Below the pieces are notes generated by a model, which did not search any database, was not told the DNA's origin, and saw nothing but the letters and a program-made list of their open reading frames with translations. 44,460 nt of DNA from a virus. The DNA lies in IMG/VR virus record IMGVR_UViG_3300005581_002677, positions 1 to 44,460 of that record. One strand, given 5' to 3'. The translations under genes were made by a program, and so were the position numbers. Position 1 is the first letter of the stretch, and each line of letters opens with the position of its first letter. This document shows, piece by piece, positions 1 to 11,850 of this stretch.

Positions 1-1
1 T

Positions 2-1612
2 AGTTCTGTTGGGTATTCACCTAAGGACCTTCAGTTTGGAGACGAGGGTCGCAAGAAGTTAATCAGTGGCATATCAAAGATTGCCGGAGCAGTAAAGAGC
101 ACATTAGGACCGAGGGGCAATACTGTCCTTATAGAGTCAACCAATCACACGGGTGGTATAACAGTAACCAAGGATGGTGTAACTGTTGCCAAGGCAGTTG
201 ACCTGATGGACCCTGTAGAGAACCTTGCGGTGCGAATGATGAAGGAGGCAGCAGACAAGACTGCTAACTCAGCAGGTGACGGTACGACTACTGCGATTGT
301 ATTGACTGAGGCTATTGTGAAGGCAGGAGACCAACTGATGAACAGTGAGACCAATAGGACATTGGTACTGCGAGAGGTAGTGGAGATGGGCAACAAGGTG
401 GTGGAGAACCTTACGGCAAGGCATACCAAAGTAACTGAGCAGACGTTGTTGGACGTAGCAACTATATCGGCAAATAACGATAAAGCCATTGGTGAGATTA
501 TTGCCAAGGTTTATAAGGAGATTGGAGAGAACGGTATTGTTACTGTTGAGAAGTCACAGACGACTGAGACGTATGCTGAGAGCACCCACGGGTTCAAGAT
601 ACAGAGGGGTTACTATTCGCCTTTGTTCATCAATGACCATAAGAAGGACGAGTGTATTTATGAGGACGTGATGGTCCTGATAAGTGACGCTGAGATACAT
701 AACCTGCTGCAGATAGAGCCTGTGTTGAAACCAATTATTTCAGAGGGGAAAAAGTTGCTGATTATAGCACCTTGCTCAGTGAACGTGGTGAACACATTGG
801 CTGCCAATGTTGTGAAGAACAACTTGAAGGTATGTGCCATTGAGCCACCATCGTTTGGTTATAAGAAGCACGAGTTGATGCAGGACATTTCGTTAGCGGT
901 AGGTGCAAAGTATTTCTCTGAGAAGACGGGTGACGACTTGAGTCTGATAACGTATGCTGACCTTGGTCACGCATCTAAGATTATCGTTGACTCGAAGAAC
1001 ACTGTGATAATAAACTCTGAGTTTCGTACCGACTTTGACGAGGTTGAGAACAGGGTTGCTCAGTTGTGGGAGGCACATAAGGCTGCGAGTAAGAAGCACG
1101 AGAAGGACTTCATCCTCTCAAGGATAGCATCACTAACAGGTGGTGTTGGTGTCATCCACGTAGGTGGTACAACTGACATTGAGCAGAAGGAGACGTATGA
1201 CCGTGTTGATGACGCAGTGTGTGCGGTGAGGTCCGCTCTTGAGGAGGGCATACTTCCCGGAGCAGGTAAGGCGTTGTTCGAGGAGGCACTTGCTATCAAG
1301 CCTGAGGATGGCGACACCAAGGAGCGTGAGGTGGCTAAGAAGATATTGCATACTGCCCTTCAGATACCACTGATGCAGATACTGTTGAACGCAGGTATGA
1401 ACGGTGAGAAGGTATATGGTCCTGACCATATGAGAGAGAGTGGCTTCGGTTACAATGTGGTGACGGGTGAGTTAGGTGACCTGATTGAGATGGGTGTGAT
1501 TGACCCGGTGAAGGTGACACGCTCAGCATTGCAGAACGCCATCAGTGTGGCAACAACAATCCTTTCAACCAATGCCATTATCACAATGGCGAGAGCATAC
1601 GAGACAAAATGA
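2..1612 (+). CDS. groEL: Chaperonin GroEL (Hsp60), 5' end cut by window edge
   Basis: This is a group I chaperonin: a double-ring ATPase that folds proteins in a cage capped by GroES. The reading frame is open from base 2, and 536 residues are visible; alignment by eye to E. coli GroEL starts about six residues in (PKDLQFGDEGRKK), so only the initiator and perhaps a few residues are missing. Visible landmarks are the LGPRG phosphate loop, the AGDGTTT nucleotide-binding motif, the conserved Asp in RVDDAV, and EEGILPGAG, where most GroELs have GGG. In the apical domain RGYYSP-LF and LAANVV preserve most of the hydrophobic GroES/substrate face; the usual second Tyr is Leu. The protein ends at ARAYETK and lacks the Gly-Gly-Met tail typical of bacterial GroEL. 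Its stop overlaps the next start (ATGA). A groES gene lies 457 bases downstream in the same operon. Phage origin is inferred from the neighbouring virion genes. Confidence 0.97.
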   Translation, partial: SSVGYSPKDLQFGDEGRKKLISGISKIAGAVKSTLGPRGNTVLIESTNHTGGITVTKDGVTVAKAVDLMDPVENLAVRMMKEAADKTANSAGDGTTTAIVLTEAIVKAGDQLMNSETNRTLVLREVVEMGNKVVENLTARHTKVTEQTLLDVATISANNDKAIGEIIAKVYKEIGENGIVTVEKSQTTETYAESTHGFKIQRGYYSPLFINDHKKDECIYEDVMVLISDAEIHNLLQIEPVLKPIISEGKKLLIIAPCSVNVVNTLAANVVKNNLKVCAIEPPSFGYKKHELMQDISLAVGAKYFSEKTGDDLSLITYADLGHASKIIVDSKNTVIINSEFRTDFDEVENRVAQLWEAHKAASKKHEKDFILSRIASLTGGVGVIHVGGTTDIEQKETYDRVDDAVCAVRSALEEGILPGAGKALFEEALAIKPEDGDTKEREVAKKILHTALQIPLMQILLNAGMNGEKVYGPDHMRESGFGYNVVTGELGDLIEMGVIDPVKVTRSALQNAISVATTILSTNAIITMARAYETK

Positions 1613-1854
1613 TAAAGAACAAAAGAGAGGCAATAGCACAACATCTTATGCTTGACTATTCAGAGGTTGAGGACTATAGGTATCACTATGGTCATACAAC
1701 ACAACCTGTTTATGCTATTACAGATTGTTACTACTGTGCAACTAAAGGGAGTCAAAAACCCGCTAAACACAGGAGTGGTATGAAGTGGGATTGGCAAGAA
1801 GAAAAAGATTCATTCGTAAATCAGAATGGATACAAGATATGGAAATCAAATTAA
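1609..1854 (+). CDS. Hypothetical protein (81 aa)
   Basis: I do not recognise this protein. The start overlaps the groEL stop by four bases (ATGA), which implies translational coupling within the chaperonin operon. The sequence is rich in Tyr, His and Trp, with a DYRYHYGH stretch and a single CYYC pair near residue 40, too little to call a zinc site. There is no signal peptide and no hydrophobic segment. The gene is followed after seven bases by the next small gene. Its placement between groEL and groES suggests co-expression with the chaperonin, but no function can be assigned. Confidence 0.75.
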   Translation: MIKNKREAIAQHLMLDYSEVEDYRYHYGHTTQPVYAITDCYYCATKGSQKPAKHRSGMKWDWQEEKDSFVNQNGYKIWKSN

Positions 1855-1861
1855 TTAATTA

Positions 1862-2086
1862 ATGATAAAGAAGGTTCATATGTTTACTGTAGTATGTGAC
1901 AACTGCAAGGTTGACGCATTTGAGGGACAGGAGATAACCTGTTGGAACAACAAAGACTTTACTGAGGACGTAGCAATAGAGTCAGGCTTCATCAAAGATG
2001 GTGACAAGCATTACTGTCCTGAGTGTGCATACTACGATGACGAGGACCAATTAAGAATAATCACAGACAATGATAGCGATAGGTAA
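1862..2086 (+). CDS. Small zinc-ribbon-like protein (74 aa)
   Basis: The protein has two CxxC pairs, CDNC near residue 12 and CPEC near residue 56, with an extra Cys near residue 27. Two knuckles about 40 residues apart are the usual pattern of a zinc ribbon, so a structural zinc site is likely. The last third is very acidic (YYDDEDQ, DNDSD). The gene lies inside the chaperonin operon, and its 3' end overlaps the groES start by 17 bases, so the two are probably translationally coupled. The partner is unknown; small phage zinc ribbons often act as adaptors, but nothing here shows which one. Confidence 0.75.
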   Translation: MIKKVHMFTVVCDNCKVDAFEGQEITCWNNKDFTEDVAIESGFIKDGDKHYCPECAYYDDEDQLRIITDNDSDR

Positions 2087-2345
2087 AAACATAATCGTCA
2101 ACGACATTGACGAGGAGATTAAAACTGAGTCAGGTTTGCTACTCTCTGCAGAGGACGCAAGGGGATTCAGGTACAAGAAGGCTAAGGTTGTGACACCGGG
2201 CACTGACGTGACGGTTATCAATCCGGGTGATGAGATATACTATGACAAGTCGCACTCATACACGATGGTCATCGGTGACACACCGTACACCATCATTCAG
2301 GAGCGTGATGTCGTTGTTGTCTCACATAGGCATTCATCTCTTTGA
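2070..2345 (+). CDS. groES: Co-chaperonin GroES (Hsp10)
   Basis: GroES forms the heptameric lid of the GroEL folding cage. The 91 residues fit the family length and pattern: an initial beta strand (MIAIGKNIIVNDID), a mobile loop (ETKESG-like, here KTESGLLLSAEDARG) whose LLL replaces the E. coli IVL tripeptide that binds GroEL, a VVTPGTDV turn, NPGDEIYYDKSHS, and a last strand ending in ERDVVVV. The start at 2070 is chosen because it opens directly on the first GroES strand; it overlaps the upstream zinc-ribbon gene. The 3' end overlaps the convergent minus-strand gene by 53 bases, and a strong intrinsic terminator lies about 70 bases beyond the stop. Together with groEL it gives the phage a complete chaperonin system. 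Confidence 0.93.
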   Translation: MIAIGKNIIVNDIDEEIKTESGLLLSAEDARGFRYKKAKVVTPGTDVTVINPGDEIYYDKSHSYTMVIGDTPYTIIQERDVVVVSHRHSSL

Positions 2346-2754
2346 TGAACTCACGGTACTTTCGGTCTGAGTAAGACACGTTCTTAGCAAAGATTGGATT
2401 AGTTGATTGGCTAACGGGGATTTCTTCCCCGTTTAGTTTTTTATAGATAGAGCCGATTACACGTTTGCCTTTGTATGAGATTTCGTACAGAGCCTTTTCT
2501 TTTGTCTTGGGGTTGTATGGTCTGAAGCAAGATATCCATTCATCACGCAGGAGTCTATCGAATCGGTCCTCATCCCACGATAACAGTTCATCGAACTCCT
2601 CGAACTTATCCTTATTGAAATATTTTTCTGAGTACAGGAACAGAAGAACATCGAGGTCAGACTGAGTCAAGCCATACTTGGCTTTGACAAAGTATCGGAT
2701 GACTCTCCAATACTTGAGATAGTCATTGTTTGGTTTGTTTCCACGGAATGCCAT
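2293..2754 (-). CDS. Winged-helix-like protein, possible regulator (153 aa)
   Basis: The 153-residue protein starts at MAFRGNKPNN; an in-frame ATG 29 codons further upstream is rejected because it would run through the promoter region and into the divergent gene. Residues about 25-110 read like a MarR-type winged helix: a helical KAKYGLTQSDLDVLLFLYS segment, an acidic recognition region with DRLLRDEW, and a basic YEISYKGKRVIGSIYKKLNG wing. The gene faces the groES operon and overlaps the groES 3' end. Its promoter box is read from the minus strand at 2779-2786 and shares a dyad with the promoter of the divergent gene at 2792, a layout that would suit autoregulation. DNA binding is inferred, not shown. 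Confidence 0.72.
   Translation of the reverse strand: MAFRGNKPNNDYLKYWRVIRYFVKAKYGLTQSDLDVLLFLYSEKYFNKDKFEEFDELLSWDEDRFDRLLRDEWISCFRPYNPKTKEKALYEISYKGKRVIGSIYKKLNGEEIPVSQSTNPIFAKNVSYSDRKYREFIKEMNAYVRQQRHHAPE
2413..2442 (+). terminator. Intrinsic terminator of the groEL-groES operon
   Basis: AACGGGGA (2413-2420) pairs perfectly with TCCCCGTT (2426-2433) across a five-base TTTCT loop and is followed by TAGTTTTTT. It lies on the plus strand 68 bases past the groES stop. It is entirely inside the coding sequence of the opposing minus-strand gene, where the same bases encode a KKLNGEEIP segment. Confidence 0.85.
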
Positions 2755-2768
2755 TAGATTAAATTTAT

Positions 2769-2786
2769 TAACTTTGTGCAAAGTTA
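2769..2786. promoter_or_regulatory. Face-to-face -7 promoter boxes in an 8+2+8 dyad
   Basis: TAACTTTG on the plus strand (2769-2776) is followed after two bases by its exact inverse, CAAAGTTA (2779-2786). Each half matches the Bacteroidota -7 consensus TAnnTTTG. The plus box serves the gene at 2792, and the minus box serves the gene starting at 2754. I see no good -33 TTG at the expected distance for either. Two polymerases could not occupy the site together, so the promoters probably compete. Confidence 0.72.
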
Positions 2787-2791
2787 CCAAA

Positions 2792-3049
2792 ATGTCAAGT
2801 GTAAAAACGTATATGGCTGACGGTTTCGATGATGCTATCATTGGAATGGAGTGCAGTGGTGATATCCCTCGTGTTGTTTATAGCATTCAGTTAATGGTTC
2901 ACGTTCTGTGTGAGCGTGATGGTATGACTGAGGAAGAAGCGGTTGATTTTATTAGTTACAATGTTATTGGTTCATATGTTGGTGAGGGTACTCCGATATA
3001 CGTTGACGTTATGAATGCTAACGAGATAAGAAACTATAACTTTAATTAA
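2792..3049 (+). CDS. Conserved small phage protein (85 aa)
   Basis: The start is set at MSSVKTYMADGFDD, 15 bases after the TAACTTTG box; an earlier in-frame ATG lies upstream of that promoter and is not used. The protein has the pattern ADGFDDAIIG, then VVYSIQLMVHVLCERDGMTEEEAVDF, then NVIGSYVGEGTP. I recall this arrangement from small uncharacterised proteins in many unrelated tailed phages, which suggests a common but unknown role. It is acidic, soluble and without a membrane segment. It opens the plus-strand run of tiny genes, and its promoter is shared as a dyad with the minus-strand regulator-like gene. Confidence 0.8.
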   Translation: MSSVKTYMADGFDDAIIGMECSGDIPRVVYSIQLMVHVLCERDGMTEEEAVDFISYNVIGSYVGEGTPIYVDVMNANEIRNYNFN

Positions 3050-3054
3050 CTTTG
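3047..3054 (+). promoter_or_regulatory. -7 promoter box, near-leaderless, for gene at 3062
   Basis: TAACTTTG overlaps the stop codon of the preceding gene; its final G is eight bases from the ATG at 3062. If transcription starts about five bases after the box, the leader would be only about three bases long. Confidence 0.6.
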
Positions 3055-3061
3055 TACCGAT

Positions 3062-3334
3062 ATGCCACAGAAAAAACAAGAAGAAAAACAGGAGACTTCA
3101 GTTGCAAGGTCACCATTGACTGATGAAATGAAGACAAAACTGTCTGATATTGCGTTCAAGAACTCTCAAATCAAGCAGATTATGGACGAAAATGCCTCAT
3201 TGAAGAAGCAATTAGGCAATCGTGGACGTACTGCAAACCGCAAACAAGCAGGTTCAGGTAGTGCTATTCCGGGTCTTGCAAGGCTTGGAAGTGCCCCTGA
3301 AATGCCCGGTGGCTACTCTAAAAAGGGCAGATAA
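3062..3334 (+). CDS. Hypothetical basic coiled-coil protein (90 aa)
   Basis: I do not recognise this family. Residues 1-20 are charged (KKQEEKQE). Residues about 20-50 form a probable amphipathic helix or short coiled coil (KLSDIAFKNSQIKQIMDENASLKKQL). The tail is Gly/Arg-rich and disordered, ending in GGYSKKGR. The overall charge is basic. Its stop overlaps the next start by one base (TAATG), so translation of the downstream genes is probably coupled. It starts right after a promoter box. A nucleic-acid or capsid-interior role would fit the composition but is only a guess. Confidence 0.72.
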   Translation: MPQKKQEEKQETSVARSPLTDEMKTKLSDIAFKNSQIKQIMDENASLKKQLGNRGRTANRKQAGSGSAIPGLARLGSAPEMPGGYSKKGR

Positions 3335-3624
3335 TGGCAGATAAGAGTAAAATGAAGTGCAATGTGACCCGTCCTTCTGACCGTCCGGGTAAGAAGATGA
3401 TGGTTAAAGCCTGTTCAGGTGGCACTGAGAAACTGTTGCACTTTGGTGCTAAGGGTTACGGGCACAATTACTCTGCTGCTGCACGTAAAAGTTTCAAGGC
3501 ACGTCAAAGTTGTGACACTGCCAATGATAAGTTGACACCAAGATATTGGGCTTGTAAGAAATTATGGGCAGGACCCGGAGGCTCAACGCAGTCATCACCT
3601 AAATCAAGACGAGGAAAGTACTGA
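3334..3624 (+). CDS. Small basic phage protein, DUF6321-like (96 aa)
   Basis: The order MKCN, then VKACSGGTEKLLHFGAKGYG, then AARKSFKARQSC, and PRYWACKKLW is the layout I associate with the DUF6321 family of tailed-phage proteins (MKCN, KACxGGxEKxIxFG, RRKSFKARH, AxYWAxKxxW). There are four Cys residues and a strong positive charge; the C-terminus is a Ser/Arg/Lys tail. No function is known for the family. The gene is tightly packed, with one-base overlaps on both sides (TAATG and TGATG), and belongs to the cluster of small basic proteins. The family name is from memory. Confidence 0.72.
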   Translation: MADKSKMKCNVTRPSDRPGKKMMVKACSGGTEKLLHFGAKGYGHNYSAAARKSFKARQSCDTANDKLTPRYWACKKLWAGPGGSTQSSPKSRRGKY

Positions 3625-3821
3625 TGAAACCTGCAAATAAACAATCTTGGAAGAGCAAGGGTCACTATCTAAAAGATGGTACTGAATGGTCAGGTCATCA
3701 ACACGCACATAGAGGCAGAGTGATGACAGGCAAGACTCACACTGCTTCATCAAAAACTCTTTATCATTTTATGGACCTTCCTTCAGAGGCTAAGAAAAAA
3801 GTATTGTCGAAGAAAAAATGA
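3624..3821 (+). CDS. Hypothetical small basic protein (65 aa)
   Basis: I do not recognise this protein. It is rich in Lys, His and Trp: SWKSKGHYLKDGTEWSG, HQHAHRGRVMTGKTHT, then a short helix (YHFMDLPSEAKKKVLSKKK). The middle part, with GTEWSGHQHAHRGRVMTG-like spacing, could be a small fold, but no catalytic pattern is evident. Its start overlaps the preceding stop by one base and its stop overlaps the next start by four bases. It is probably expressed together with its neighbours from the promoter at 3047. Confidence 0.7.
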   Translation: MKPANKQSWKSKGHYLKDGTEWSGHQHAHRGRVMTGKTHTASSKTLYHFMDLPSEAKKKVLSKKK

Positions 3822-4168
3822 AAGATGCCTGTTATAAAAAAGTAAAAGCACAGTACGATGTATTCCCATCGGCACGTGCATCACAGGCAATTGCCAAGTG
3901 TCGTAAAGAATCGGGCAGTGTACGCAAGGGTGAGGCAGGTACTTCACTGAAGAGATGGGAGAAGGAGAAGTGGGTTGACACCCGGACGGGTAAACCGTGT
4001 GGTGGTGGTGGCAGCAATGAGTACTGTCGTCCATCCAAGAGAGTGTCTTCAAAGACACCCGTAACCAAATCAGAGTTGAGTCCATCCAAACTTGCAGCGA
4101 AGAAGGCTGAGAAGTCAAGAGTTGGTATGGGTAATCGTGTTTCAAGCATTATAAAAAAAAATAGGTAA
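3818..4168 (+). CDS. Small Lys-rich phage protein, DUF5872-like C-terminus (116 aa)
   Basis: Residues 1-30 follow the pattern CYKKVKAQYDVFPSARASQA-IAKC, which recurs, as I recall, in small phage and giant-virus proteins (AxYKxVKxxYxVxPSAxAS). Residues 42-75 (SLKRWEKEKWVDTRTGKPCG, then YCRPSKRVS) resemble the DUF5872 motif, where a Trp-containing basic helix is followed by Cys-containing turns. The tail is Ser/Lys-rich. The function is unknown; DNA association is plausible from charge. The sequence coding for VSSKTP contains one copy of the 16-base dispersed dyad (4043-4058). The stop codon TAA is also the first three bases of the next promoter box. Confidence 0.7.
   Translation: MKDACYKKVKAQYDVFPSARASQAIAKCRKESGSVRKGEAGTSLKRWEKEKWVDTRTGKPCGGGGSNEYCRPSKRVSSKTPVTKSELSPSKLAAKKAEKSRVGMGNRVSSIIKKNR
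4043..4058. repeat. Dispersed dyad, copy 1 (inside a CDS)
   Basis: GTGTCTTCAAAGACAC: two 7-base inverted arms around CA. It encodes V-S-S-K-T in the DUF5872-like gene. No T-run follows, so it is not an ordinary terminator. Further copies lie at 12034, 19160, 29202, 35588 and 42806. Confidence 0.85.
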
Positions 4169-4173
4169 CTTTG
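4166..4173 (+). promoter_or_regulatory. -7 promoter box, probable leaderless start at 4178
   Basis: TAACTTTG begins with the stop codon of the preceding gene, and its final G is five bases from the ATG at 4178. With the usual Bacteroidota spacing the transcript would begin at or within a base of the start codon. Confidence 0.62.
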
Positions 4174-4177
4174 CATT

Positions 4178-4351
4178 ATGGCTAAGATGAGTAAGTTTGA
4201 GAAGTTGAGCAATAAGATTGCTGAGAAACAAGGCATCAGCAAACAGAGAGCAAATGCTATCACTGCATCTATTGGTCGCAAGAAATATGGGAAGACTGCC
4301 TTCCAAGAAATGGCAGCAAAAGGAAAGTCAAAACTCAAAAACAAAAAATAA
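4178..4351 (+). CDS. Small basic phage protein (57 aa)
   Basis: This short gene encodes 57 residues: a helical KFEKLSNKIAEKQGISK segment, then ANAITASIGRKKYGKTAFQEMAAKGK, and a Lys-rich end. The motif GIS-..A-..I-.ASIGRKKYGK is common, as I recall, in tiny tailed-phage proteins that have no assigned function. The ATG lies five bases after a TAACTTTG box, so the mRNA is probably leaderless. It is one of a cluster of very basic products between the chaperonin and fibre genes, and is followed after five bases by another small gene. Confidence 0.72.
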   Translation: MAKMSKFEKLSNKIAEKQGISKQRANAITASIGRKKYGKTAFQEMAAKGKSKLKNKK

Positions 4352-4356
4352 ATACA

Positions 4357-4518
4357 ATGAAAAAAATGATGACCCCCGGTATGATGAACTCCATCAGCAA
4401 CCCTAAGAAAGCAGTTGCCAAAGGTGCTGCAAAGAAAGCAGTAGGCAAAGCAGTTAAAAAAGCCGTAGGTAAAGCAGTTGCTAAGAAGGCAGTTGCTGCA
4501 GCCAAGAAGATGTATTAA
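4357..4518 (+). CDS. Lys/Ala-repeat protein resembling histone H1 tails (53 aa)
   Basis: After a Met-rich start (MKKMMTPGMM) the rest of the protein is built from repeats of the type KKAVGKAV or AKKAVAAAKK, containing almost only Lys, Ala, Val and Gly. This composition is like eukaryotic H1 tails and the bacterial Hc1 or AlgP-type tails that bind DNA through charge. There are about sixteen Lys in 53 residues and one acidic residue at most. It may bind phage DNA or be packed in the head, but its repeat composition alone cannot prove this. The gene follows its neighbour after five bases and has A-rich upstream sequence (AATACA) instead of a Shine-Dalgarno. Confidence 0.68.
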   Translation: MKKMMTPGMMNSISNPKKAVAKGAAKKAVGKAVKKAVGKAVAKKAVAAAKKMY

Positions 4519-4529
4519 TCTTTTAAAAG

Positions 4530-4715
4530 ATGATGAAAGTTAACGGCATTGGAGTAACTCTTAGTAAGGACATTGCTAAGAACAGTTCTAACGTGATGGG
4601 CAAAATGGGTAACAAGAAAGCCCTGATGAGCCGTTCAACGTGCAAGGGTCTTAATGACCCTTGCATTATCAATGGAACTGTTGGTAAGCAATTGAGCAAG
4701 TTAATCTCTAAGTAA
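4530..4715 (+). CDS. Hypothetical protein (61 aa)
   Basis: I do not recognise this protein. It has two Cys in STCKGLNDPCIING and an N-terminal GIGVTLSKDIAKN segment, with a positive charge overall. Two adjacent ATG codons are possible (4530 and 4533). The two Cys codons sit at the two ends of a perfect 10-base inverted repeat (4641-4665). The stop overlaps the next start by one base (TAATG). Confidence 0.65.
   Translation: MMKVNGIGVTLSKDIAKNSSNVMGKMGNKKALMSRSTCKGLNDPCIINGTVGKQLSKLISK
4641..4665. repeat. Perfect 10-bp inverted repeat inside a CDS
   Basis: TGCAAGGGTC, a five-base loop TTAAT, and GACCCTTGCA pair perfectly. The hairpin lies inside the 61-residue gene and encodes C-K-G-L-N-D-P-C. 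No T-run follows, so termination is unlikely. Confidence 0.7.
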
Positions 4716-4843
4716 TGGGTCAATTATTTATCAAGATAGGGAATTGGTTTATAAAGGCAGGGAATCAAATCATTGCATTCTTCAAGCAGATTACTTTGAC
4801 TTGGGATGCTTTTATAAAGTTGCTCATAATCAATAAAGACTAA
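4715..4843 (+). CDS. Tiny hydrophobic protein (42 aa)
   Basis: The product is short and amphipathic to hydrophobic: GQLFIKIGNWFIKAGNQ, then IIAFFKQITLTWDAF, then IKLLIINKD. It could be a membrane-active peptide or a small helix bundle. It starts one base inside the preceding stop codon (TAATG) and ends two bases before the next gene, which supports it being translated. I know no family for it. Confidence 0.6.
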   Translation: MGQLFIKIGNWFIKAGNQIIAFFKQITLTWDAFIKLLIINKD

Positions 4844-4845
4844 CT

Positions 4846-5025
4846 ATGAAGTTAAGCGAAAAAAGCAAGGGTCTTGGCGATACTATCGAGAAGATTACTA
4901 CGGTAACCGGGGTAAAGAAGGTTGTCGATGCGGTTGCAGGTGCAGTTAAGAAAGACTGTGGTTGTGGCAAAAGGCGTGATACTTTAAACAGAATGTTTCC
5001 ATATGAGGAAACGCATAATAAATAA
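4846..5025 (+). CDS. Conserved small phage protein with CGCG motif (59 aa)
   Basis: The 59 residues contain GLGDTIEKITTVTGVKKVVD, a short helix, then DCGCGKRRDTLNRMFPY. The pattern LGDTIxKxTxxTGIKKVV...CxCxKRxxxLNxxFPY is, in my recollection, conserved in small proteins of many tailed phages, including marine phages; none has an assigned function. The closely spaced Cys pair followed by basic residues might bind metal or nucleic acid. It is the last member of the small-protein cluster; the first larger virion gene follows after five bases. Confidence 0.75.
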   Translation: MKLSEKSKGLGDTIEKITTVTGVKKVVDAVAGAVKKDCGCGKRRDTLNRMFPYEETHNK

Positions 5026-5030
5026 AACAA

Positions 5031-5501
5031 ATGGCAAATCAAAAACTTCAAGTTGCTCGTGCGTTGCGGATATATAAGTCTGACAATGCTGATATTCCGT
5101 TTCCAAACATATCACGTTCAGGAGCGAACACAAGTGTTGTTGCAAACAAACTCGTTGTAGCAGGTGCTAACTTCACTGCTGACCAAGTTGCAGCAGGTGA
5201 CATTGTGTACAATACTTCAACAGGTGTATCTGCAACTGTTACCAATCTTGACTCTACAACTCAGATTGCATTGAATGCAGACATATTCCTTGCAACTCCA
5301 AACAACTTTGTAATTTACAAAGGTGGAGCGAATAATGGTTGCGTTATCTATGTTGGAGAAGGTGGTGACGTTGAGGTAACAACTGCCGGAGGAGACCGTG
5401 TGATTTTCTATGGTCTTCTTACGGGTCAGTTTGTACCTGTTCACGTTACCAAGGTATGGTCAGCAGGAACAAATGCTTTGAACCTCTTAGCCCTTTGGTA
5501 A
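5031..5501 (+). CDS. Small virion beta-protein (156 aa)
   Basis: The product is probably a small particle protein. Residues about 105-156 (GCVIYVGEGGDVEVTTAGGDRVIFYG, then FVPVHVTKVWSAGTNALNLLALW) form the pattern I recall from short virion proteins of many tailed phages, with a beta-rich body and a terminal TNxLALW. Residues 40-97 hold a separate module (GDIVYNTSTGVSATV, DSTTQIALNADIF, NNFVIY) that also occurs in the connector-like protein at 20044. No Cys clusters or signal peptide are present. The next gene begins two bases after its stop. A decoration or neck role is possible. Confidence 0.7.
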   Translation: MANQKLQVARALRIYKSDNADIPFPNISRSGANTSVVANKLVVAGANFTADQVAAGDIVYNTSTGVSATVTNLDSTTQIALNADIFLATPNNFVIYKGGANNGCVIYVGEGGDVEVTTAGGDRVIFYGLLTGQFVPVHVTKVWSAGTNALNLLALW

Positions 5502-5502
5502 G

Positions 5503-5643
5503 ATGATAATCATAGGTGACCTGATAACGATTGGTACTGACGCTGCAGTTTATGCAATAAATAACTATTTGCTTTGGAGTCCTGCCAACAGTAACAAGTT
5601 GCTTGTAAGAGCATCAAACAACGATAAATTAATTTGGAAATAA
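5503..5643 (+). CDS. Tiny hypothetical protein (46 aa)
   Basis: This is a 46-residue protein fitted exactly between two larger virion genes: it starts two bases after one and its stop abuts the ATG of the fibre gene. The sequence (MIIIGDLITIGTDAAVYAIN, then LLWSPANSNKLLVRASNNDK) is beta-like, with short hydrophobic strands and no long membrane segment. I know no family. The exact packing argues that it is translated; it may be a small accessory of the preceding virion protein. Confidence 0.6.
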   Translation: MIIIGDLITIGTDAAVYAINNYLLWSPANSNKLLVRASNNDKLIWK

Positions 5644-7092
5644 ATGGCTAATTTAACCATATTCGGTTTAACCCAACTCACCTCTGCAGGTGCTGATATT
5701 GTAAATGACTTAGTTCCTGTATGGGATAATAGTGCCTTAGAGACTAAAAAAATGACGCTATCAGATTTGAGGAATCTGATGTCTCCTGTGAATTGGAGTG
5801 ATAGTTTCTCATCTGCTACTCAGGCTACTTCTTCTTGGACACCAAACAATGCAGCAGCGAATGTAAATGCTGCTATTATTCCAAAAGGTACAGGTGCTAT
5901 TGTTGCTGCTATTCCCGATGGAACTGCTACAGGTGGTAATGCAAGAGGTTCTAATACGGTTGATTTGCAAAGAGTAAGAAGTGCTGCCAATAGTGTTGCA
6001 GGAGGTGACCAAAGCGTATTGCTCGGAGGCAATAACAATAGAATAGCAAGTACGGCTGATAGGTCAGTTCTTGTTGGTGGAATTTCAAACTTAGATTCCG
6101 GCAGTCGTTCTGTTTTAGTAGGAGGTGAACAAAATAATGTAAGTGGTAGTTATGCATCTTGTGTTGGTGGGTTACAGAACACTATATCGGGAAATTATAG
6201 TTTTGTAGGCGGTGGACAATCAATTACAGCAAGTGGACAATGGAGTGCTGTTGTAGGTGGACAATCAAATACCGCAAGTGGCAATCATTCTACTGCGATA
6301 GGTCAAGGTAGTACTGCAAGTGGAATAAATTCATTTGCAGGTGGTGGTGGTACTGCGAGTGGTAGTGGTGCTTTTGTTTTTGGTAGTTGCACAGGTAACT
6401 CTGAAGCAAGTATTGCAATAGGTCGAAATTGCACCGCAAATAACACTGGACAGCGTGGTATGATTGCTATGGGTAATACCTGTTCCACAACCTATGAGGG
6501 TGGTGTTGCTTTGGGTGCGAATTGTGGAACATCTAATTTTGGTGCTGTTGCTTTAGGACAAGGAAATAGCGCAACGGGTTTAGGAACGAGAGCAACAGGT
6601 AGAGAAAGCAGAGCAGAGTTACAAGGTCAAGTATCTCACGCAGGAGGTCAGTTTTCTGCCCAAGGAGATGCTCAAGCACACGAGTTAATTTGGCGTAGAG
6701 CAATTACAGGAACGGCTCAGACCGAACTCTTCTTGGATGGTTCATCTATTGCTGCAATTCTTCCTGCAACTAATACGGTATGGAACGGTATAATTGATAT
6801 TGCTGCTATTTGTACTGTTACCGGAGATGGAACCACTGTTGTAGGTGATGTAGAAGCAACTGCTTACAAAGTAACTATCAAGAGAATAGGAACTACTACC
6901 TCTTTGGTGGGTGGTGTTCAAGAGATTGGAATTACTAATGCTGATGCTTCTATGGCAACTGCAGTATTTACAATTGACAATAACGACACAAACGAAAGTT
7001 TAAGGATTCGCTTTACTCCTCCTTCAACTGCAGGTTCAACTACCGTTATTAGAGCAGTTGCCACATTCCGTGGAACTCAGATTAAATATTAA
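5644..7092 (+). CDS. Tail fibre with YadA-like head repeats (482 aa)
   Basis: This is probably a trimeric receptor-binding fibre. Residues 1-45 (LTIFGLTQLTSAGADIVNDL-VPVWD then KMTLSDLRN) look like a virion-anchoring segment, related to the start of the protein at 9689. Residues about 115-330 are at least twelve 14-17 residue repeats of the form SVLVGGxxNxxSG or AVALGxxNxATG, the left-handed beta-roll motif of YadA heads and related trimeric adhesins. Residues 325-350 (RESRAELQGQVSHAGGQFSA) followed by GDAQAHELIWRR and TELFLDGSS match C-terminal domains of many phage fibres. The end is a beta-sandwich-like domain. It lies between the small virion proteins and the lysis genes. Receptor binding is inferred from architecture. 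Confidence 0.82.
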   Translation: MANLTIFGLTQLTSAGADIVNDLVPVWDNSALETKKMTLSDLRNLMSPVNWSDSFSSATQATSSWTPNNAAANVNAAIIPKGTGAIVAAIPDGTATGGNARGSNTVDLQRVRSAANSVAGGDQSVLLGGNNNRIASTADRSVLVGGISNLDSGSRSVLVGGEQNNVSGSYASCVGGLQNTISGNYSFVGGGQSITASGQWSAVVGGQSNTASGNHSTAIGQGSTASGINSFAGGGGTASGSGAFVFGSCTGNSEASIAIGRNCTANNTGQRGMIAMGNTCSTTYEGGVALGANCGTSNFGAVALGQGNSATGLGTRATGRESRAELQGQVSHAGGQFSAQGDAQAHELIWRRAITGTAQTELFLDGSSIAAILPATNTVWNGIIDIAAICTVTGDGTTVVGDVEATAYKVTIKRIGTTTSLVGGVQEIGITNADASMATAVFTIDNNDTNESLRIRFTPPSTAGSTTVIRAVATFRGTQIKY

Positions 7093-7096
7093 TAAT

Positions 7097-7104
7097 TATC
7101 TTTG
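7097..7104 (+). promoter_or_regulatory. -7 promoter box for gene at 7121 and lysis cassette
   Basis: TATCTTTG begins five bases after the fibre stop codon and lies 17 bases upstream of the ATG at 7121. It may drive the small gene at 7121 and the holin and endolysin genes behind it. No clear -33 TTG is seen. Confidence 0.6.
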
Positions 7105-7120
7105 AAACATAATAAATAAG

Positions 7121-7426
7121 ATGGCACTTCAAATCACAACCGATGTAGTAACAAGTGATGGATTCACTGTACAACCATTTGCTTTTCTTGATATTCAATT
7201 GTATCAACTATTTTCAAGGGCTTTGATAACTTACTATAAAGATGAAGCAACATTTATTGCAGGTGGCTCACCTGTAAATGTACCAAACTTGCCTTCATTA
7301 GTAAACGCAGAATTAACTGCTTCAGAGTTTTGGGGAACTGAATTGGCAACATTGATTCACAACAAATGCATAACCGCTATTGAAGAAGTAACGGGTGCAG
7401 GAACTTGTGAAATAGTTACTCTCTAA
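7121..7426 (+). CDS. Hypothetical protein before the lysis genes (101 aa)
   Basis: I do not recognise a named family. The protein is soluble and mildly acidic: TTDVVTSDGFTVQPFAFLDI, then LYQLFSRALITYYKDEATFIAGG, then ELTASEFWGTELATLIHNKC. The first half is beta-like and the second half is helical. It directly follows a fibre gene and is the first gene after a promoter, four bases ahead of a holin-like gene. It could be a small tail accessory or fibre partner. There is no signal peptide. Confidence 0.7.
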   Translation: MALQITTDVVTSDGFTVQPFAFLDIQLYQLFSRALITYYKDEATFIAGGSPVNVPNLPSLVNAELTASEFWGTELATLIHNKCITAIEEVTGAGTCEIVTL

Positions 7427-7430
7427 CGAG

Positions 7431-7736
7431 ATGAAAGAGTTTTTAATAAGCATAGGATTAAACATTGGATTAGCAGTTAGTGGATTCTTTGGCTCTCTAC
7501 TTCTTGTAGGTAAGCAAAAGAATCAGAATCTTCGTGAGCAAGTATTCTCTGTTATCGGTGGTACAATGAGTGCTAATTATTTAACTCCTGTCGTTATTGA
7601 TTTGCTTGGTGTTAAAGGTGAATCATTACAATATGGATTTGCTTTTGTTATAGGTTTTGGAGGTCTTAAGATAGTTGAAGTAGTATACGAGAAATATATT
7701 TCTAAAATAAAGTCAAACAATGATGGTAATTCTTAA
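7431..7736 (+). CDS. Putative holin (101 aa, membrane protein)
   Basis: A holin would form the inner-membrane lesion that releases the endolysin. The protein has a hydrophobic N-terminal segment (FLISIGLNIGLAVSGFFGSLLLVG), a basic loop (KQKNQNLREQ), a middle segment with FSVIGGTMSANYLTPVVIDLL and a third hydrophobic stretch (YGFAFVIGFGGLKIVEVVYE). A Lys-rich cytoplasmic tail follows. Three membrane helices, about 100 residues and a position three genes upstream of an amidase are typical of class I holins. The SANYLTPV motif is one I recall from putative phage holins. Its end overlaps the next membrane-protein gene. Function is inferred from context. Confidence 0.65.
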   Translation: MKEFLISIGLNIGLAVSGFFGSLLLVGKQKNQNLREQVFSVIGGTMSANYLTPVVIDLLGVKGESLQYGFAFVIGFGGLKIVEVVYEKYISKIKSNNDGNS

Positions 7737-8013
7737 TCTTATAGCGAATCTCATTTTGACTTTATCAGGAATGATTTTCTTCTTGCAGTTATATGGTAAT
7801 GAATCATCCATAGTTCACAAGTGGAAATTCATATCTCATTGGAGTTTAAAGATAGGATTGTCTGCATTTGTAGCAGGTTCATTCTTAAATGTGATTACGT
7901 TAAGTAATCCGGGCTTTGGTGAGACATTGATGAATCTTGGTCTTGCTGCTATATTTAGTTGGGCAGTTATGTTCCATTATAAAATATTTTCAAAGTATGG
8001 CAAAAAAGACTAA
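7720..8013 (+). CDS. Second small membrane protein of the lysis cassette (97 aa)
   Basis: Three hydrophobic segments are visible: VILNLIANLILTLSGMIFFL, then LKIGLSAFVAGSFLNVITL, and LMNLGLAAIFSWAVMFHY, followed by a basic tail (KIFSKYGKKD). The size and topology suit a holin or antiholin paired with the preceding gene, whose end it overlaps by 17 bases. Two ATG codons in a row (7720 and 7723) allow two starts that differ by one residue, a milder form of the dual starts seen in some holins. Its 3' end overlaps the next gene by 17 bases. It might equally be a chaperone-like partner of the first holin. Confidence 0.62.
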   Translation: MMVILNLIANLILTLSGMIFFLQLYGNESSIVHKWKFISHWSLKIGLSAFVAGSFLNVITLSNPGFGETLMNLGLAAIFSWAVMFHYKIFSKYGKKD

Positions 8014-8143
8014 GATATCTGAGGTAAAGAAGTTTGTTTCAAAGCCTAAGGCAAAGCGTCCGGGCGTACACGCAAAGACAAAGACAAGTAAAAACAAGGG
8101 TAGTCAGAATTATCAGAAGCCCTATAACAAACAAGGAAAATGA
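7997..8143 (+). CDS. Conserved small basic phage protein (48 aa)
   Basis: The start is set at MAKKTKISEV, 60 bases inside a longer open frame, because the short form matches a small family that I recall from many tailed phages: a Lys-rich start, RPGVHAKTKTSKNKGSQNY, and a KKPYxxQGK end. Here the end is KPYNKQGK. About one third of the residues are Lys or Arg. The role is unknown. It overlaps the gene before it by 17 bases and the endolysin after it by four bases (ATGA), so it is translated in the lysis cassette. Confidence 0.75.
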   Translation: MAKKTKISEVKKFVSKPKAKRPGVHAKTKTSKNKGSQNYQKPYNKQGK

Positions 8144-8847
8144 ATATCAAGCAAGTAAACTTTGGTGCTGCTCACTATATTAATCAGGACACACCTAAAA
8201 AGCAAATCTATTTACACCATACTGCAGGTAATGATAATGCAGAGGGAGTGTTCAAGTATTGGGAACAAACAACTGAGCGTGTAGCAACTTGCGTTGCTAT
8301 TGACTCTAAGGGTCTGATTGTTCAGGGATTCCCATCAACTAAGTGGGCTTATCACTTGGGTCTTGAGACTAAGACTTTCAACAATCAGGGATTGGCATAT
8401 CAACCATTAGACCAACTATCTATTGGTATTGAGATTTGCAATTGGGGTTATTTGACTCAAGTTGGTAGCGGTAACAATGCAACCTATCATAACTATGTAG
8501 GGATGAAGATTCCTCGTGCTGAGGTTATCAAGTTGGATACTCCTTTTAAAGGGCAACAGTTTTTTCATAATTATACTGATGCTCAGATTGAAGCAGTAAA
8601 AGAATTATTACTTTTGTGGAATGATAGATACAAGATTCCGTTGGACTACAACGATGACATATGGGGGATATCTACAAGAGCATTATCTGCTCAACCCGGT
8701 GTCTACACCCACAATTCGGTTCGCAAGGATAAGACTGACGTATATCCGCACCCCGGACTGATTGAGATGTTAAAGTCACTGACTGCAAAAGAGCCGATAT
8801 TGGTTGGTGAGCCTAAGGCTAAGAGCAGTGGAAAAAGCAAAAAGTAA
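8140..8847 (+). CDS. Endolysin, N-acetylmuramoyl-L-alanine amidase (Amidase_2)
   Basis: The enzyme would cleave the amide bond between muramic acid and the first stem-peptide residue of peptidoglycan. The 235 residues cover one Amidase_2/T7-lysozyme-type domain. The IYLHHTAG motif gives the first zinc ligand (H26). THNSVRKDKTD gives the second ligand (H191), the catalytic-site Lys (K198) and the third ligand position, occupied by Asp (D200). The intermediate KWAYHLGLET and LSIGIEICNWG segments are the conserved substrate-groove strands. There is no signal peptide, so export would depend on a holin. The Lys/Ser-rich tail is disordered. The ATG overlaps the preceding stop by four bases. The next gene may overlap its 3' end by 44 bases. 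Confidence 0.9.
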   Translation: MNIKQVNFGAAHYINQDTPKKQIYLHHTAGNDNAEGVFKYWEQTTERVATCVAIDSKGLIVQGFPSTKWAYHLGLETKTFNNQGLAYQPLDQLSIGIEICNWGYLTQVGSGNNATYHNYVGMKIPRAEVIKLDTPFKGQQFFHNYTDAQIEAVKELLLLWNDRYKIPLDYNDDIWGISTRALSAQPGVYTHNSVRKDKTDVYPHPGLIEMLKSLTAKEPILVGEPKAKSSGKSKK

Positions 8848-9400
8848 CTTATTGTTTCTTACTATAGGAGCCACTATGATGTGGCTCCTATTGAAACAAT
8901 GCTCGTCACCTTCTGAGACGACTATAAAATATCTTCCCGGAGATTCAATACCTTATACTGTATACAAGGGTATTCCTAAACCGTATGCAGTTCGTTATAC
9001 TGATTCAATACCTTACTATGATACTGCTTGGCTACCGGGAGATACTCAGTATGTTCTTAAGCCAATTGACACAATGTTCATTCTTAGGGACTACTATGCA
9101 AAGGTGAAGTATATTGACACTGTCAAGAATGATAGCAGTGCTTTGATAGTTTTAAATGAGACAGTATTCAAGAATCGTATATCAGACAGAAGTATTATAT
9201 TCCAAAACAGAAGGAAGACTGCTATCATACAAGATAGGCAGAAGGCTTTTGTTTTAGGTATTGGTGGAACGCTTACAGGATTGGATGCTTCAATAGGATA
9301 TATGCAGAACAGGAATGTGTTTAATATAACGTATTCTGCTCAAGGTGTAGGGCTAAGATATCAGCGTGAGATAGGTTTAGGAAAGACATCAAAAAAATAA
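8804..9400 (+). CDS. Membrane-anchored protein, spanin-like (198 aa)
   Basis: The protein follows the endolysin and probably completes lysis at the outer membrane. With the start at 8804 it has one N-terminal membrane segment (LLFLTIGATMMWLLLK) followed by a Cys, then a periplasmic part with repeated short PGDS-IPY and DSIPYYD motifs, a helical YYAKVKYIDT to RKTAIIQDRQ stretch, and a beta-like C-terminus (VLGIGGTLTGLDASIGYMQ, then VGLRYQREIGLG). Similar proteins are common in Bacteroidota phages and have been called DUF6808 or spanin-like. An alternative start at 8876 has the best Shine-Dalgarno in the region (AGGAG five bases before ATG). It would shorten the membrane segment and lies in a hairpin loop, so the start is uncertain. 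Confidence 0.65.
   Translation: MVSLRLRAVEKAKSNLLFLTIGATMMWLLLKQCSSPSETTIKYLPGDSIPYTVYKGIPKPYAVRYTDSIPYYDTAWLPGDTQYVLKPIDTMFILRDYYAKVKYIDTVKNDSSALIVLNETVFKNRISDRSIIFQNRRKTAIIQDRQKAFVLGIGGTLTGLDASIGYMQNRNVFNITYSAQGVGLRYQREIGLGKTSKK
8864..8891. repeat. Perfect 11-bp hairpin holding a Shine-Dalgarno and ATG
   Basis: ATAGGAGCCAC (8864-8874), the loop TATGAT, and GTGGCTCCTAT (8881-8891) form a perfect stem just after the endolysin stop. An AGGAG lies in the 5' arm and the ATG at 8876 in the loop. It has no T-run, so it may hide a start site or protect an mRNA end. Confidence 0.75.
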
Positions 9401-9401
9401 T

Positions 9402-9409
9402 TATCTTTG
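9402..9409 (+). promoter_or_regulatory. -7 promoter box for gene at 9430
   Basis: TATCTTTG starts two bases after the spanin-like gene's stop and lies 21 bases upstream of the ATG at 9430. It begins the transcription unit that runs into the terminase genes. Confidence 0.6.
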
Positions 9410-9429
9410 TGCAACATAAATCAAATTAA

Positions 9430-9702
9430 ATGAAAACAATAAAAATGGAACCGAACAACAAGCAGTTTTTGACTGAAGAAGAATTGGGTAAGACTCAAGC
9501 AATGCACACTGAGTTTAATAAACTCAAAACGCACCTTGCTGACGTGTCATTACAGAAGCACGGATTGCTGAAGCAAATTGATTTGTTACGCAATGACTTT
9601 GCTCAGCACGAGAATGAACTTATGGCTAAGTATGGAACTGATGCCGTTATCAATATTCAAACAGGAGAAATAACAAGGAACGAACCCGATGGGAAAAATT
9701 AG
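9430..9702 (+). CDS. Conserved helical phage protein (90 aa)
   Basis: The protein is almost all helix: LTEEELGKTQAMHTEFNKLK, LADVSLQKHGLLKQIDLLRN, a charged FAQHENELMAKYG, and then a short beta hairpin AVINIQTGEITRN. I recall this pattern (long coiled helix ending in YGxDAVINxxTGEI) from small proteins of several marine and Bacteroidota phages; its role is not known. The start at 9430 follows a promoter; a second ATG at 9445 is possible. Its 3' end overlaps the next gene by 14 bases. Confidence 0.75.
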   Translation: MKTIKMEPNNKQFLTEEELGKTQAMHTEFNKLKTHLADVSLQKHGLLKQIDLLRNDFAQHENELMAKYGTDAVINIQTGEITRNEPDGKN

Positions 9703-10294
9703 TACATACCCGACTGATACCAATGTATCGCTTAGCGACAGACTGATTGGTACTGATAATGAGAATAACAATGAGACCAAGAACTTTACAGTAGGTGCGT
9801 TAGCATCTACTGTATTGGGTCAACTTGATGCCACTTTGGTATTGAATGCTTTTTCAACAGTTATTCAAGCACCTTCAGCACTAAACACTCCTCTTCAAGT
9901 TACATTTGGAGGAGCACAGGGTAGTTCATCTACGCCTGTAATGATTGATGCTTTAGGTAATATTACATTCAATCAGTCGGGATTGTACATAATTAATGCT
10001 TACGGTTCAGTTGAGAGAACAGGTTCATCAGGTGGTACTGCTATATTTTTGTTTAGAGGACTTGTAAATGGTACTCCTTCAACAACAACAAAGGCATTTC
10101 ATTTAGACACTCCTGATGTTGCATTCCCTTATGAGATAACAATTCCTTTCCAAGCAACTGCAGGTAACGTACTTACTTTTCAAGTTATGCGTGATTCATC
10201 AGGTGTAAACCACGGTGGATTATATCCTCATACGAACTTAGGTGGATGGGGTAATGTTCCCTCAACTGAGATTCTGATATGGAAGATAGGATAA
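9689..10294 (+). CDS. Fibre-like virion protein with jelly-roll-like C-terminus (201 aa)
   Basis: Residues 1-40 (ISTYPTDTNVSLSDRLIGTD, then ETKNFTVGALAS) match the pattern of virion-anchoring N-termini, where a DxLIGTD strand is followed by TKNFT. The fibre at 5644 has a related start. Residues 65-201 look like a C1q/TNF-type jelly roll: TPLQVTFGG, GNITFNQSGLYIINAYGSVE, a middle with RGLVNGTPS, and GNVLTFQVMRDSSGVNHGG, ending in STEILIWKIG. Such domains trimerise at fibre tips. The gene overlaps its upstream neighbour. It may be a short fibre or a head decoration; the anchor suggests attachment at the tail. Confidence 0.68.
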   Translation: MGKISTYPTDTNVSLSDRLIGTDNENNNETKNFTVGALASTVLGQLDATLVLNAFSTVIQAPSALNTPLQVTFGGAQGSSSTPVMIDALGNITFNQSGLYIINAYGSVERTGSSGGTAIFLFRGLVNGTPSTTTKAFHLDTPDVAFPYEITIPFQATAGNVLTFQVMRDSSGVNHGGLYPHTNLGGWGNVPSTEILIWKIG

Positions 10295-10309
10295 TCAAAT
10301 TTAATTTAT

Positions 10310-10537
10310 ATGGACATAAGGAAGATATCGGTGGGTCCCGACTACAAGAACGGGGCTATGCACTATATCGTTGGTCAGAAAGTACTTAATGATACTCAAG
10401 AGATATACCTCATAAAATACGATGAGATTAAGAAGTCTATAAAGATTTACATAATCAATGAGAAGCAGGAAGTTGTTCTGTGGAAAGAGTTTAACGATAC
10501 CGTTCCTGTTTCCATTGAGTACAACATTAATATCTAA
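10310..10537 (+). CDS. Hypothetical phage protein (75 aa)
   Basis: I recognise only a weak pattern. The N-terminus MDIRKISVGPDYKNGAMHYIVGQ and the following alternating strands (EIYLIKYDEIKKSIKIYIINEKQE, VVLWKEFNDTVPVSIEY) suggest a small beta-rich fold. The sequence MxIRKISVGxDYKxxAMxY is, as I recall, found at the start of short proteins in various tailed phages. It has no Cys and no membrane segment. Its stop overlaps the next start by one base (TAATG), so it is probably coupled to the GroES-like gene behind it. Confidence 0.72.
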   Translation: MDIRKISVGPDYKNGAMHYIVGQKVLNDTQEIYLIKYDEIKKSIKIYIINEKQEVVLWKEFNDTVPVSIEYNINI

Positions 10538-11100
10538 TGCAATCTCCTTTTTATTTTATAGCCAAGCCCATAGATGGTAAGCGGTATGATAACACGAGAG
10601 ATATCGCAGGAGTTGAACTGATAGTAAACGTATCAGAGGAAGACCATCGTTTCTCAAATAGACAGGCAGAAGTTATTGAACTTCCATTGGGTTATAATGG
10701 ACCCATCAAGAAGGGAGATACTTTACTTGTTCATCATAACACATTCAAATTTTACAACGACATAAAGGGTAGAAGGAAGAGTGGTAAGAGTTTCTTTAAG
10801 GAAGACTTATTCTTTATAGAGCCTGACCAATTCTTTTTATACAAGAGTGGTGATGATTGGAATGCGTATGATAAGTATTGTTTTGTAAAACCGATACCAC
10901 CTGAGGAGTCTTATATAAAGAAGCCTACTACACACGAGCCTCTTATGGGGGAGATGGTGTATCCAAATGCAGAACTTAAAAGACACGGTATTGTTAAGGG
11001 TGATAAGGTTTGCTTTCAGCCGGACAGTGAATATGAATTTTATGTCGATGGAGAGAAACTCTATCGTATGTTTGACCATCAAATAACAATCAAATTATGA
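10537..11100 (+). CDS. Two-domain GroES-like beta-barrel protein (187 aa)
   Basis: The protein seems to hold two GroES-type barrels in tandem. The first (residues 1-115) has a strand FYFIAKPID, an ELIVNVS loop, a turn before KKGDTLLVHHNTFKFY and DLFFIEPDQFFLYKSG; the GD-x-V-x-(H/F) strand followed by a final hydrophobic strand is the GroES pattern. The second (residues 117-187) has YCFVKPIPP, EPLMGEMVYPN, VKGDKVCFQPDSEYEFYVDG and EKLYRMFDHQITI, which matches the second half of GroES. I recall related phage proteins but no experimental function. It might cap a chaperonin or be a structural barrel. The role is inference. It overlaps both neighbours by one to four bases. Confidence 0.6.
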   Translation: MQSPFYFIAKPIDGKRYDNTRDIAGVELIVNVSEEDHRFSNRQAEVIELPLGYNGPIKKGDTLLVHHNTFKFYNDIKGRRKSGKSFFKEDLFFIEPDQFFLYKSGDDWNAYDKYCFVKPIPPEESYIKKPTTHEPLMGEMVYPNAELKRHGIVKGDKVCFQPDSEYEFYVDGEKLYRMFDHQITIKL

Positions 11101-11591
11101 ATCTAATCGTATTGGACAATGTATTGACAGACCCTATCTCTTATGTTAGAGACGCTCTGTCTTATGGCTTTGAAGAAGTATTTGATGCCGACAAGGTATT
11201 CAAAGGTATTCAGCCAAGGAGTGATGACGAGTTTCAGCACTTCATTGAAAATTATTTATCTCTGCAGTATGAGACTGTTTACAATTTCATACGTCAATCT
11301 CCTGAGGGTCAGGACGAACCAAACTTCGTTCACACAGATGATGGTATGGGAGATATAATTGCTTTGTTATATTTGAATGAGAATCATCCTGAGGATGGTA
11401 CAATCATATATGACAATGATGGAGAAAAGATGTGCTCTGTTCATATGAAGTTTAATAGAGCAGTTATATTCGGAACTCGTTACCCACATTCTCGTGCATT
11501 ATTTGAAAACTTTGGTGAAGGAGATGATTCACGTCTCATTCAAGTTTTATTCTTAAAATTGCGTAAGGATGGACCCGAAACAGTTGCGTGA
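11097..11591 (+). CDS. 2-oxoglutarate/Fe(II) oxygenase-like protein (164 aa)
   Basis: The double-stranded beta-helix oxygenase motif is visible: H79-T-D81 in NFVHTDDGMGDIIALLYLN, a distal H131 in GTRYPHSRALFENFG, and R146 in DDSRLIQVLFL, which is the spacing of an iron site plus a 2-oxoglutarate-binding Arg. The strands between them (LLYLN, GTIIYDN, AVIFGT) complete the jelly roll. Phages carry related prolyl-hydroxylase-like proteins (DUF6445 and similar) of unknown target. Hydroxylation of a protein substrate is the family's usual reaction, but no substrate can be read here. It sits just upstream of the terminase genes and overlaps both neighbours. Confidence 0.75.
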   Translation: MNLIVLDNVLTDPISYVRDALSYGFEEVFDADKVFKGIQPRSDDEFQHFIENYLSLQYETVYNFIRQSPEGQDEPNFVHTDDGMGDIIALLYLNENHPEDGTIIYDNDGEKMCSVHMKFNRAVIFGTRYPHSRALFENFGEGDDSRLIQVLFLKLRKDGPETVA

Positions 11592-11850
11592 GAAAATTAT
11601 TCAAGCCGGGTATATAGCGGTTGAGCAACTAATCAAGGTTGCTAAGGAGGATATTATAAAGCCTGACCCTGAGGATGATTTGTCTGCAGATAAACTAAAG
11701 AACGCTGCAGCGTCCAAGAGGTTGGCAATCTTTGATGCTTTTGAGATTCTTGCAAGAGTTGAAGCAGAAAAGAATATATTAGAAGGGAATGACAAAGGTG
11801 TCGAAAGAGTCGAGACAAAACAAGGATGGGCAGAACGAAGGGCAAAGTAG
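11569..11850 (+). CDS. Putative terminase small subunit (93 aa)
   Basis: The protein is small and helical: MDPKQLREKIIQAGYIAVEQ, an acidic linker KPDPEDDLSADKL, then KNAAASKRLAIFDAFEILAR and a coiled EAEKNILEG stretch. The block DxLSADKLKNAAASKRLAIFDAFEIL is one I recall directly upstream of large terminases in related phages. The position, size and helical build suit a DNA-recognition subunit of the packaging motor. It has no clear helix-turn-helix. Its end overlaps the large terminase start by 62 bases, an unusually long overlap. An unrelated helical head protein is the alternative. Confidence 0.6.
   Translation: MDPKQLREKIIQAGYIAVEQLIKVAKEDIIKPDPEDDLSADKLKNAAASKRLAIFDAFEILARVEAEKNILEGNDKGVERVETKQGWAERRAK

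Follow-up and report, generated by a model that had tools for sequence, protein, structure and literature searches.

A phage-encoded GroEL-GroES pair in one operon and its relatives in environmental phages

Described phage chaperonins and the pair in the window

Phages are known to encode either half of the group I chaperonin system. T4 supplies only the lid, gp31, and uses the GroEL of its host; like CocO of RB49, gp31 is a GroES homologue, and it lacks the roof loops, has a larger chamber and is tied to the folding of the large capsid protein gp23 (PMC6318259). The giant phages EL, OBP and AR9 encode GroEL homologues, among which single-ring forms are known, and these best characterized phage GroELs are active without a known co-chaperonin (PMC7185714, PMC9598537). 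Among Bacteroidetes phages, GroEL has been reported in 36 marine viral genomes (“group 2” of Nishimura et al. 2017, uncultured phages related to Cellulophaga phages), where GroES is unmentioned (PMC5332604), and cpn10 is among the core proteins of Pervagoviridae (PMC8776804). That certain phages carry the two genes together is credited to Marine et al. 2017 in the citing text of PMC7185714. Annotated pairs are found in the isolated phages elemo (Elemovirus), phi40:1 and Calle (Callevirus) and immuto (Immutovirus, a myovirus). In these, as in the uncultured MW202828 from Manatee Spring, both genes are phage-encoded and adjacent or nearly so.

The DNA analyzed here (the window), a linear virus fragment from IMG/VR (IMGVR_UViG_3300005581_002677) with a length of 44,460 bases, carries both genes. 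The groEL ORF (2 to 1612, + strand) codes for 536 aa of a group I chaperonin and is open at its 5′ end, at the edge of the window; since the GroEL of a contig that is 98% identical (L003) begins MIDSSVGYSP, only MID, about three N-terminal residues, falls outside. The protein matches Pfam Cpn60_TCP1 over its full length (190 bits against a cut-off of 34.3; profile positions 1 to 488 of 490) and phrog_5725, “chaperonin groEL,” with 437 bits. It aligns with group I, having no helical-protrusion insert, i.e., no built-in lid, and a GroES gene lies in the same operon, unlike in the EL, OBP and AR9 type, for which no GroES partner is known. groES (2070 to 2345, + strand; 91 aa) exceeds the Cpn10 cut-off (35.0 bits against 21.1) and matches the GroES family phrog_3188 with 45.9 bits; its AF2 model has the Cpn10 beta-barrel fold, and its mobile loop carries a hydrophobic tripeptide, in the motif SGLLL. 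Two small ORFs lie in between. The first (1609 to 1854, + strand; 81 aa, no Pfam match) has an ATG that overlaps the groEL stop as ATGA, and the second (1862 to 2086, + strand; 74 aa), zinc-ribbon-like with two CxxC pairs, matches phrog_17873, of unknown function, at 3.7e-8 and overlaps the start of groES by 17 bp. In this layout, groEL and groES form one translationally coupled operon of the phage. The Pfam and PHROG matches to both ORFs confirm the first-pass annotation, which had described the two genes as phage-encoded in a single operon, and the observation is real and far beyond chance. Fold, catalytic residues and group I membership are shared with GroEL/GroES of E. coli, where, however, groES comes first, whereas groEL does in the window.

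Phage type, frequency and gene order of the module

The large terminase gene (TerL, 11789 to 14074) matched 87 records only, from Flavobacterium, Cellulophaga, Tenacibaculum and Maribacter phages and from MW202828. The portal gene (14071 to 16506) matches phrog_6547, and that of a capsid-like protein (17689 to 19137) matches phrog_13704. These three genes and the chaperonin pair are those of an Elemovirus/Callevirus-like podovirus, so that the window phage is podovirus-type and related to Elemovirus and Cellulophaga phages, and its hosts would be Bacteroidota of the Flavobacteria type. Genomes of the relatives are about 60 kb. MW202828 shares 63% identity with the window in GroEL, 64% in GroES and 78% in TerL; elemo has a TerL that is 44.6% identical but a GroEL that is only 37% identical, with a different loop (GLYL). 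Unlike in the window, GroES is 5′ of GroEL in phi40:1, Calle and immuto, and the GroES of immuto keeps the roof region. A megablast of positions 1 to 12000 of the window against phage records returned no match, and the Bacteroidota −7 promoter motif TAnnTTTG was found 54 times in the window against 44 expected, a number reached in 7 of 100 shuffles.

Several other genes of the window deserve mention. Domains of crAss-phage muzzle proteins were matched at 21902 to 26554 and 28257 to 29063 (crAss_MUZ, 5.6e-12; crAss_MUZ_C, 1.5e-17), which links the tail of this phage to Crassvirales. A single ORF of 3520 aa (32240 to 42802) ends the structural module. At 5644 to 7092 there is a 482-aa beta-roll protein with a weak YadA-head/ice-binding-like match; it is 57% identical to its counterpart in L003, against 96 to 97% for most neighbors, and is likely a swapped receptor-binding or fiber module. 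Upstream of the terminase gene, a 164-aa protein (11097 to 11591) has a weak 2OG-Fe(II) oxygenase match, and a 176-aa protein (43445 to 43975, − strand) matches the DnaA C-terminal DNA-binding domain at 4e-11.

One scan of IMG/VR gave 141 encoded relatives of the window GroEL, and the best 80 of the 141 were kept (64 to 100% identical, L002 being 100% identical). Together with the window, MW202828, elemo and immuto, they make up 84 loci. GroES follows GroEL on the 3′ side in 83 of them, at a spacing of −82 to 2095 bp; in the remaining one, immuto, the annotated GroES is directly 5′ of GroEL. The pair is thus common, being carried by no fewer than 80 contigs of related phages, and the rarity that the first-pass annotation had implied does not hold. 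It is not a new type of system either, given the annotated pairs in isolated phages and the earlier publications. A further case may be Bacteroides phage DAC20 (L108), in which an 87-aa ORF annotated as hypothetical (2218 to 2481) sits directly before a GroEL, also annotated as hypothetical; by eye, it looks like a roofless GroES with the loop GIII.

The content of the gap between the two genes varies even among close relatives. In L013 and L031, whose GroEL is 89% identical, groEL and groES overlap by 4 bp with nothing in between, while L003 has a third intervening gene beside the two small ones. Near-identical copies of the 81-aa ORF occur only in L002 and L003, and it is absent from the closer-spaced relatives; the 74-aa ORF also occurs in L003 and L007. 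Elsewhere the gap is occupied by unrelated genes, including, by inspection of the sequence only, a GIY-YIG-like endonuclease in L067. In L021, L028 and L038, the chaperonin operon contains an ORF of about 280 aa that resembles, by eye only, a class II aminoacyl-tRNA synthetase/asparagine synthetase A. The translational coupling of the two small ORFs (the ATGA overlap with groEL, the 17-bp overlap with groES) would suit dedicated accessory parts of the chaperonin, as had been suggested at first. However, this is very improbable, as both are absent from the 89% identical L013 and L031 and the gap elsewhere holds varied cargo, GIY-YIG-like, class II aaRS-like or other small ORFs. Given this absence and replacement, the gap is a hot spot for insertions, in which the two small ORFs are passengers.

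On the other side of groES, the situation is far more stable. A convergent gene (2293 to 2841, − strand), matching phrog_17028 and weakly a transcriptional regulator, overlaps groES with its 3′ end. In each of the 13 loci examined, the contig of a metagenome-assembled genome (MAG; L086) among them, the gene directly after groES is a regulator-like one in the opposite orientation, and the gene at this position in MW202828 is annotated as “repressor protein.” It marks the conserved boundary of the chaperonin module.

Origin and selection

In the tree, the window GroEL groups with L003, L004, L013 and L007 in a clade of 26 rows that contains phages only (support 96/88) and is separated from the bacterial GroELs by a stem of 1.5 changes per site. 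The bacterial side was represented by E. coli, one Variovorax plasmid copy, one host-like Acinetobacter record, bacteria of the TMED88 phylum and an ancestral Bacteroidetes-group chaperonin. The deep joins of this tree are unreliable, owing to the long branches of AR9 and the crAss phages. In those comparisons with relatives in which synonymous sites are unsaturated, dN/dS is 0.09 to 0.14 for GroEL and 0.015 to 0.21 for GroES, and both genes are under strong purifying selection. The long separate evolution from cellular GroELs that had been proposed is well borne out by the phage-only clade, its long stem and a dN/dS of about 0.1; the tree was also inspected for a tight grouping within one host genus, the pattern that would have spoken against it, and the window GroEL does not group in this way.

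The position of groEL at the end of a contig could raise the suspicion that a host gene pair was recently captured, or that assembly had joined phage and host DNA into a chimera, and the nearest solved sequence is indeed an ancestral Fibrobacteres-Chlorobi-Bacteroidetes chaperonin (387 bits, against 339 for E. coli). But the gene order is identical in a dozen independent contigs, and no plasmid GroEL above about 40% identity to that of the window was found among the matches listed. A scan of 84,980 cellular genomes gave one match, L086 (NHEP01000119, from the bacterium TMED88 MAG). We rejected it as a cellular gene: it nests inside the phage clade, its contig has the groEL-groES-regulator order of the phage module, and the MAG has a separate, ordinary GroEL, so that L086 is best explained as a phage contig binned with the bacterium. 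With no close cellular relative to the phage-only clade, purifying selection on both genes and invariant catalytic residues (see below), recent capture and chimerism are excluded for practical purposes, and we give them hardly any chance. The affinity to the ancestral chaperonin is only suggestive of a remote source in the host phylum, which would then be ancient.

Lid, groove and rings

Residues were counted in 81 GroELs of the phage clade and compared with 19 bacteria. D52, D87, D398, T30, G32, K51, T89 and T90 are invariant in all 81, and the ATP-site motifs flanking D52, D87 and D398 are invariant or nearly so. Near this site, PGAG had been read as a replacement of GGG. The middle glycine is alanine in 62 of the 81 (glycine is kept in 17), but the contrast was overstated, since a proline before GGG is ordinary in bacterial GroELs (VPGGG). 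The Gly-Gly-Met tail, which 18 of the 19 bacteria have, is missing from every clade member; its absence from the window GroEL, a difference from E. coli, had been correctly read from the sequence, as had the motifs RGYYSPLF and LAANVV and the mobile loop with LLL rather than IVL.

The groove that seats GroES presents a mixed picture. The window keeps Y199, F204, L237, T261 and N265, but the first-pass statement that most GroES-contact residues are kept has to be set against Y203L, R231L, L234E, E238K, L259V, V263A and V264A. Most of these differing residues are fixed in the clade (L234E in 79/81, R231L and E238K in 80/81 each, V263A and V264A in all), as are four of the kept ones (Y199, F204 and N265 in 81/81, L237 in 80/81). 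By these alignments, the groove has been remodeled and then frozen rather than kept. All 41 clade representatives have AA at positions 263 and 264, against VV in the 19 bacteria, and the mobile-loop triple is LIL in 38 and LLL in 27 of the 80 clade GroES scored (65/80 together), against IVL or IVI in the bacterial GroES aligned. This pairing of AA with LIL/LLL and of VV with IVL/IVI indicates that lid and seat changed together, although in a single event shared by the clade and not by repeated covariation. Outside the clade, elemo combines a YA groove with a LYL loop and immuto a VV groove with III, so that the two parts differ jointly from lineage to lineage, each time as one event.

Every one of the 33 aligned GroES of the clade lacks the roof hairpin region, which is present in E. 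coli, and so does that of elemo. The AF2 model of the window GroES (pLDDT 84.9; moderately confident in the mobile-loop block, mean 66) resembles Cpn10 structures of the PDB with Z of 10 to 10.8, the best being Thermus Cpn10 (Z 10.8, rmsd 2.1 over 84 residues), and T4 gp31 (1g31) with Z 8.3. Like gp31, it is roofless, although the mobile loop of gp31 is longer. The GroEL model is less certain (pLDDT 75.7) and poor at residues 33 to 64.

The pair is ancient and almost certainly functional, and very probably it constitutes a group I chaperonin system dedicated to the phage, which encodes both the GroEL ring and the GroES lid that matches it. In the mechanism that we infer, including GroEL-GroES binding, substrates, open dome and timing, the operon would provide both ring and lid, and ATP binding and hydrolysis, for which the catalytic residues are all kept, would drive the capture of unfolded phage proteins. 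The mobile loop (LLL/LIL) would dock in the remodeled groove (L237 kept, V263A/V264A/L234E), followed by folding in the chamber and release. As GroES has no roof hairpin, the top of the chamber may be wider or open, as in T4 gp31, which would suit large virion proteins such as the capsid-like protein of 482 aa and the packaging, portal and muzzle proteins of 761 to 1550 aa. With both parts phage-encoded, the phage would be freed from the specificity of host GroEL.

GroES could nevertheless be dispensable to this GroEL, since those of EL, OBP and AR9 need no known co-chaperonin. The protein would then act mainly as a holdase of that kind, while GroES would be used otherwise, e.g., by converting host GroEL as T4 gp31 does; the remodeling of the apical groove, with Glu at position 234 in nearly all members, and the gp31-like lid would fit. 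We consider this improbable. With 24% identity over 73% of the query, the AR9 chaperonin is very distant; free drift would not leave positions 263, 264 and 237 of the groove nearly or fully invariant across the clade; and GroES has stayed 3′ of GroEL in all loci but immuto despite a turnover of 0 to 2 kb of cargo, which argues that the two genes are kept together.

More unusual is the behavior of the ring-ring contacts. Besides the left-hand contacts of GroEL, at positions 105, 108, 109 and 434, we considered R452, E461, S463 and V464, by which the single-ring mutant SR1 is defined (PMC5653362). In the clade, the ring-ring contact positions are at the 84th to 99th percentile of variability, with 452, 461, 463, 464, 105 and 109 among the most variable. 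Their mean entropy is 2.66, against 1.10 (SD, 0.34) for equatorial positions matched to them in bacterial conservation, and none of 20,000 draws exceeded it, a contrast overstated to an unknown degree because solvent exposure is unmatched. These positions, unkept relative to E. coli, thus appear to have lost conservation across the clade, which makes it conceivable that the double heptameric ring typical of group I chaperonins is here a single ring or is held together weakly. With the ring-ring contacts freed from constraint and the lid seat kept, the protein may even be a natural single-ring GroEL with a dedicated open-topped (roofless) GroES lid, a minimal chamber conserved across a group of environmental phages, although we regard this step as doubtful.

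The structural work on phage chaperonins considered here has dealt with the GroES-independent ones of EL, OBP and AR9. The phages described here add a large and coherent family (at least 80 contigs) of GroEL-GroES pairs in which lid and barrel have changed together. Its less ordinary features across the clade, of specialist interest, are the roofless GroES and the unconserved ring contacts of GroEL, and together they suggest that a dedicated lid sits on a chamber with an open top and perhaps only one ring. The family offers compact, well-aligned material for asking whether folding by encapsulation still works with a GroES that has no roof and a GroEL whose inter-ring contacts are unconserved.
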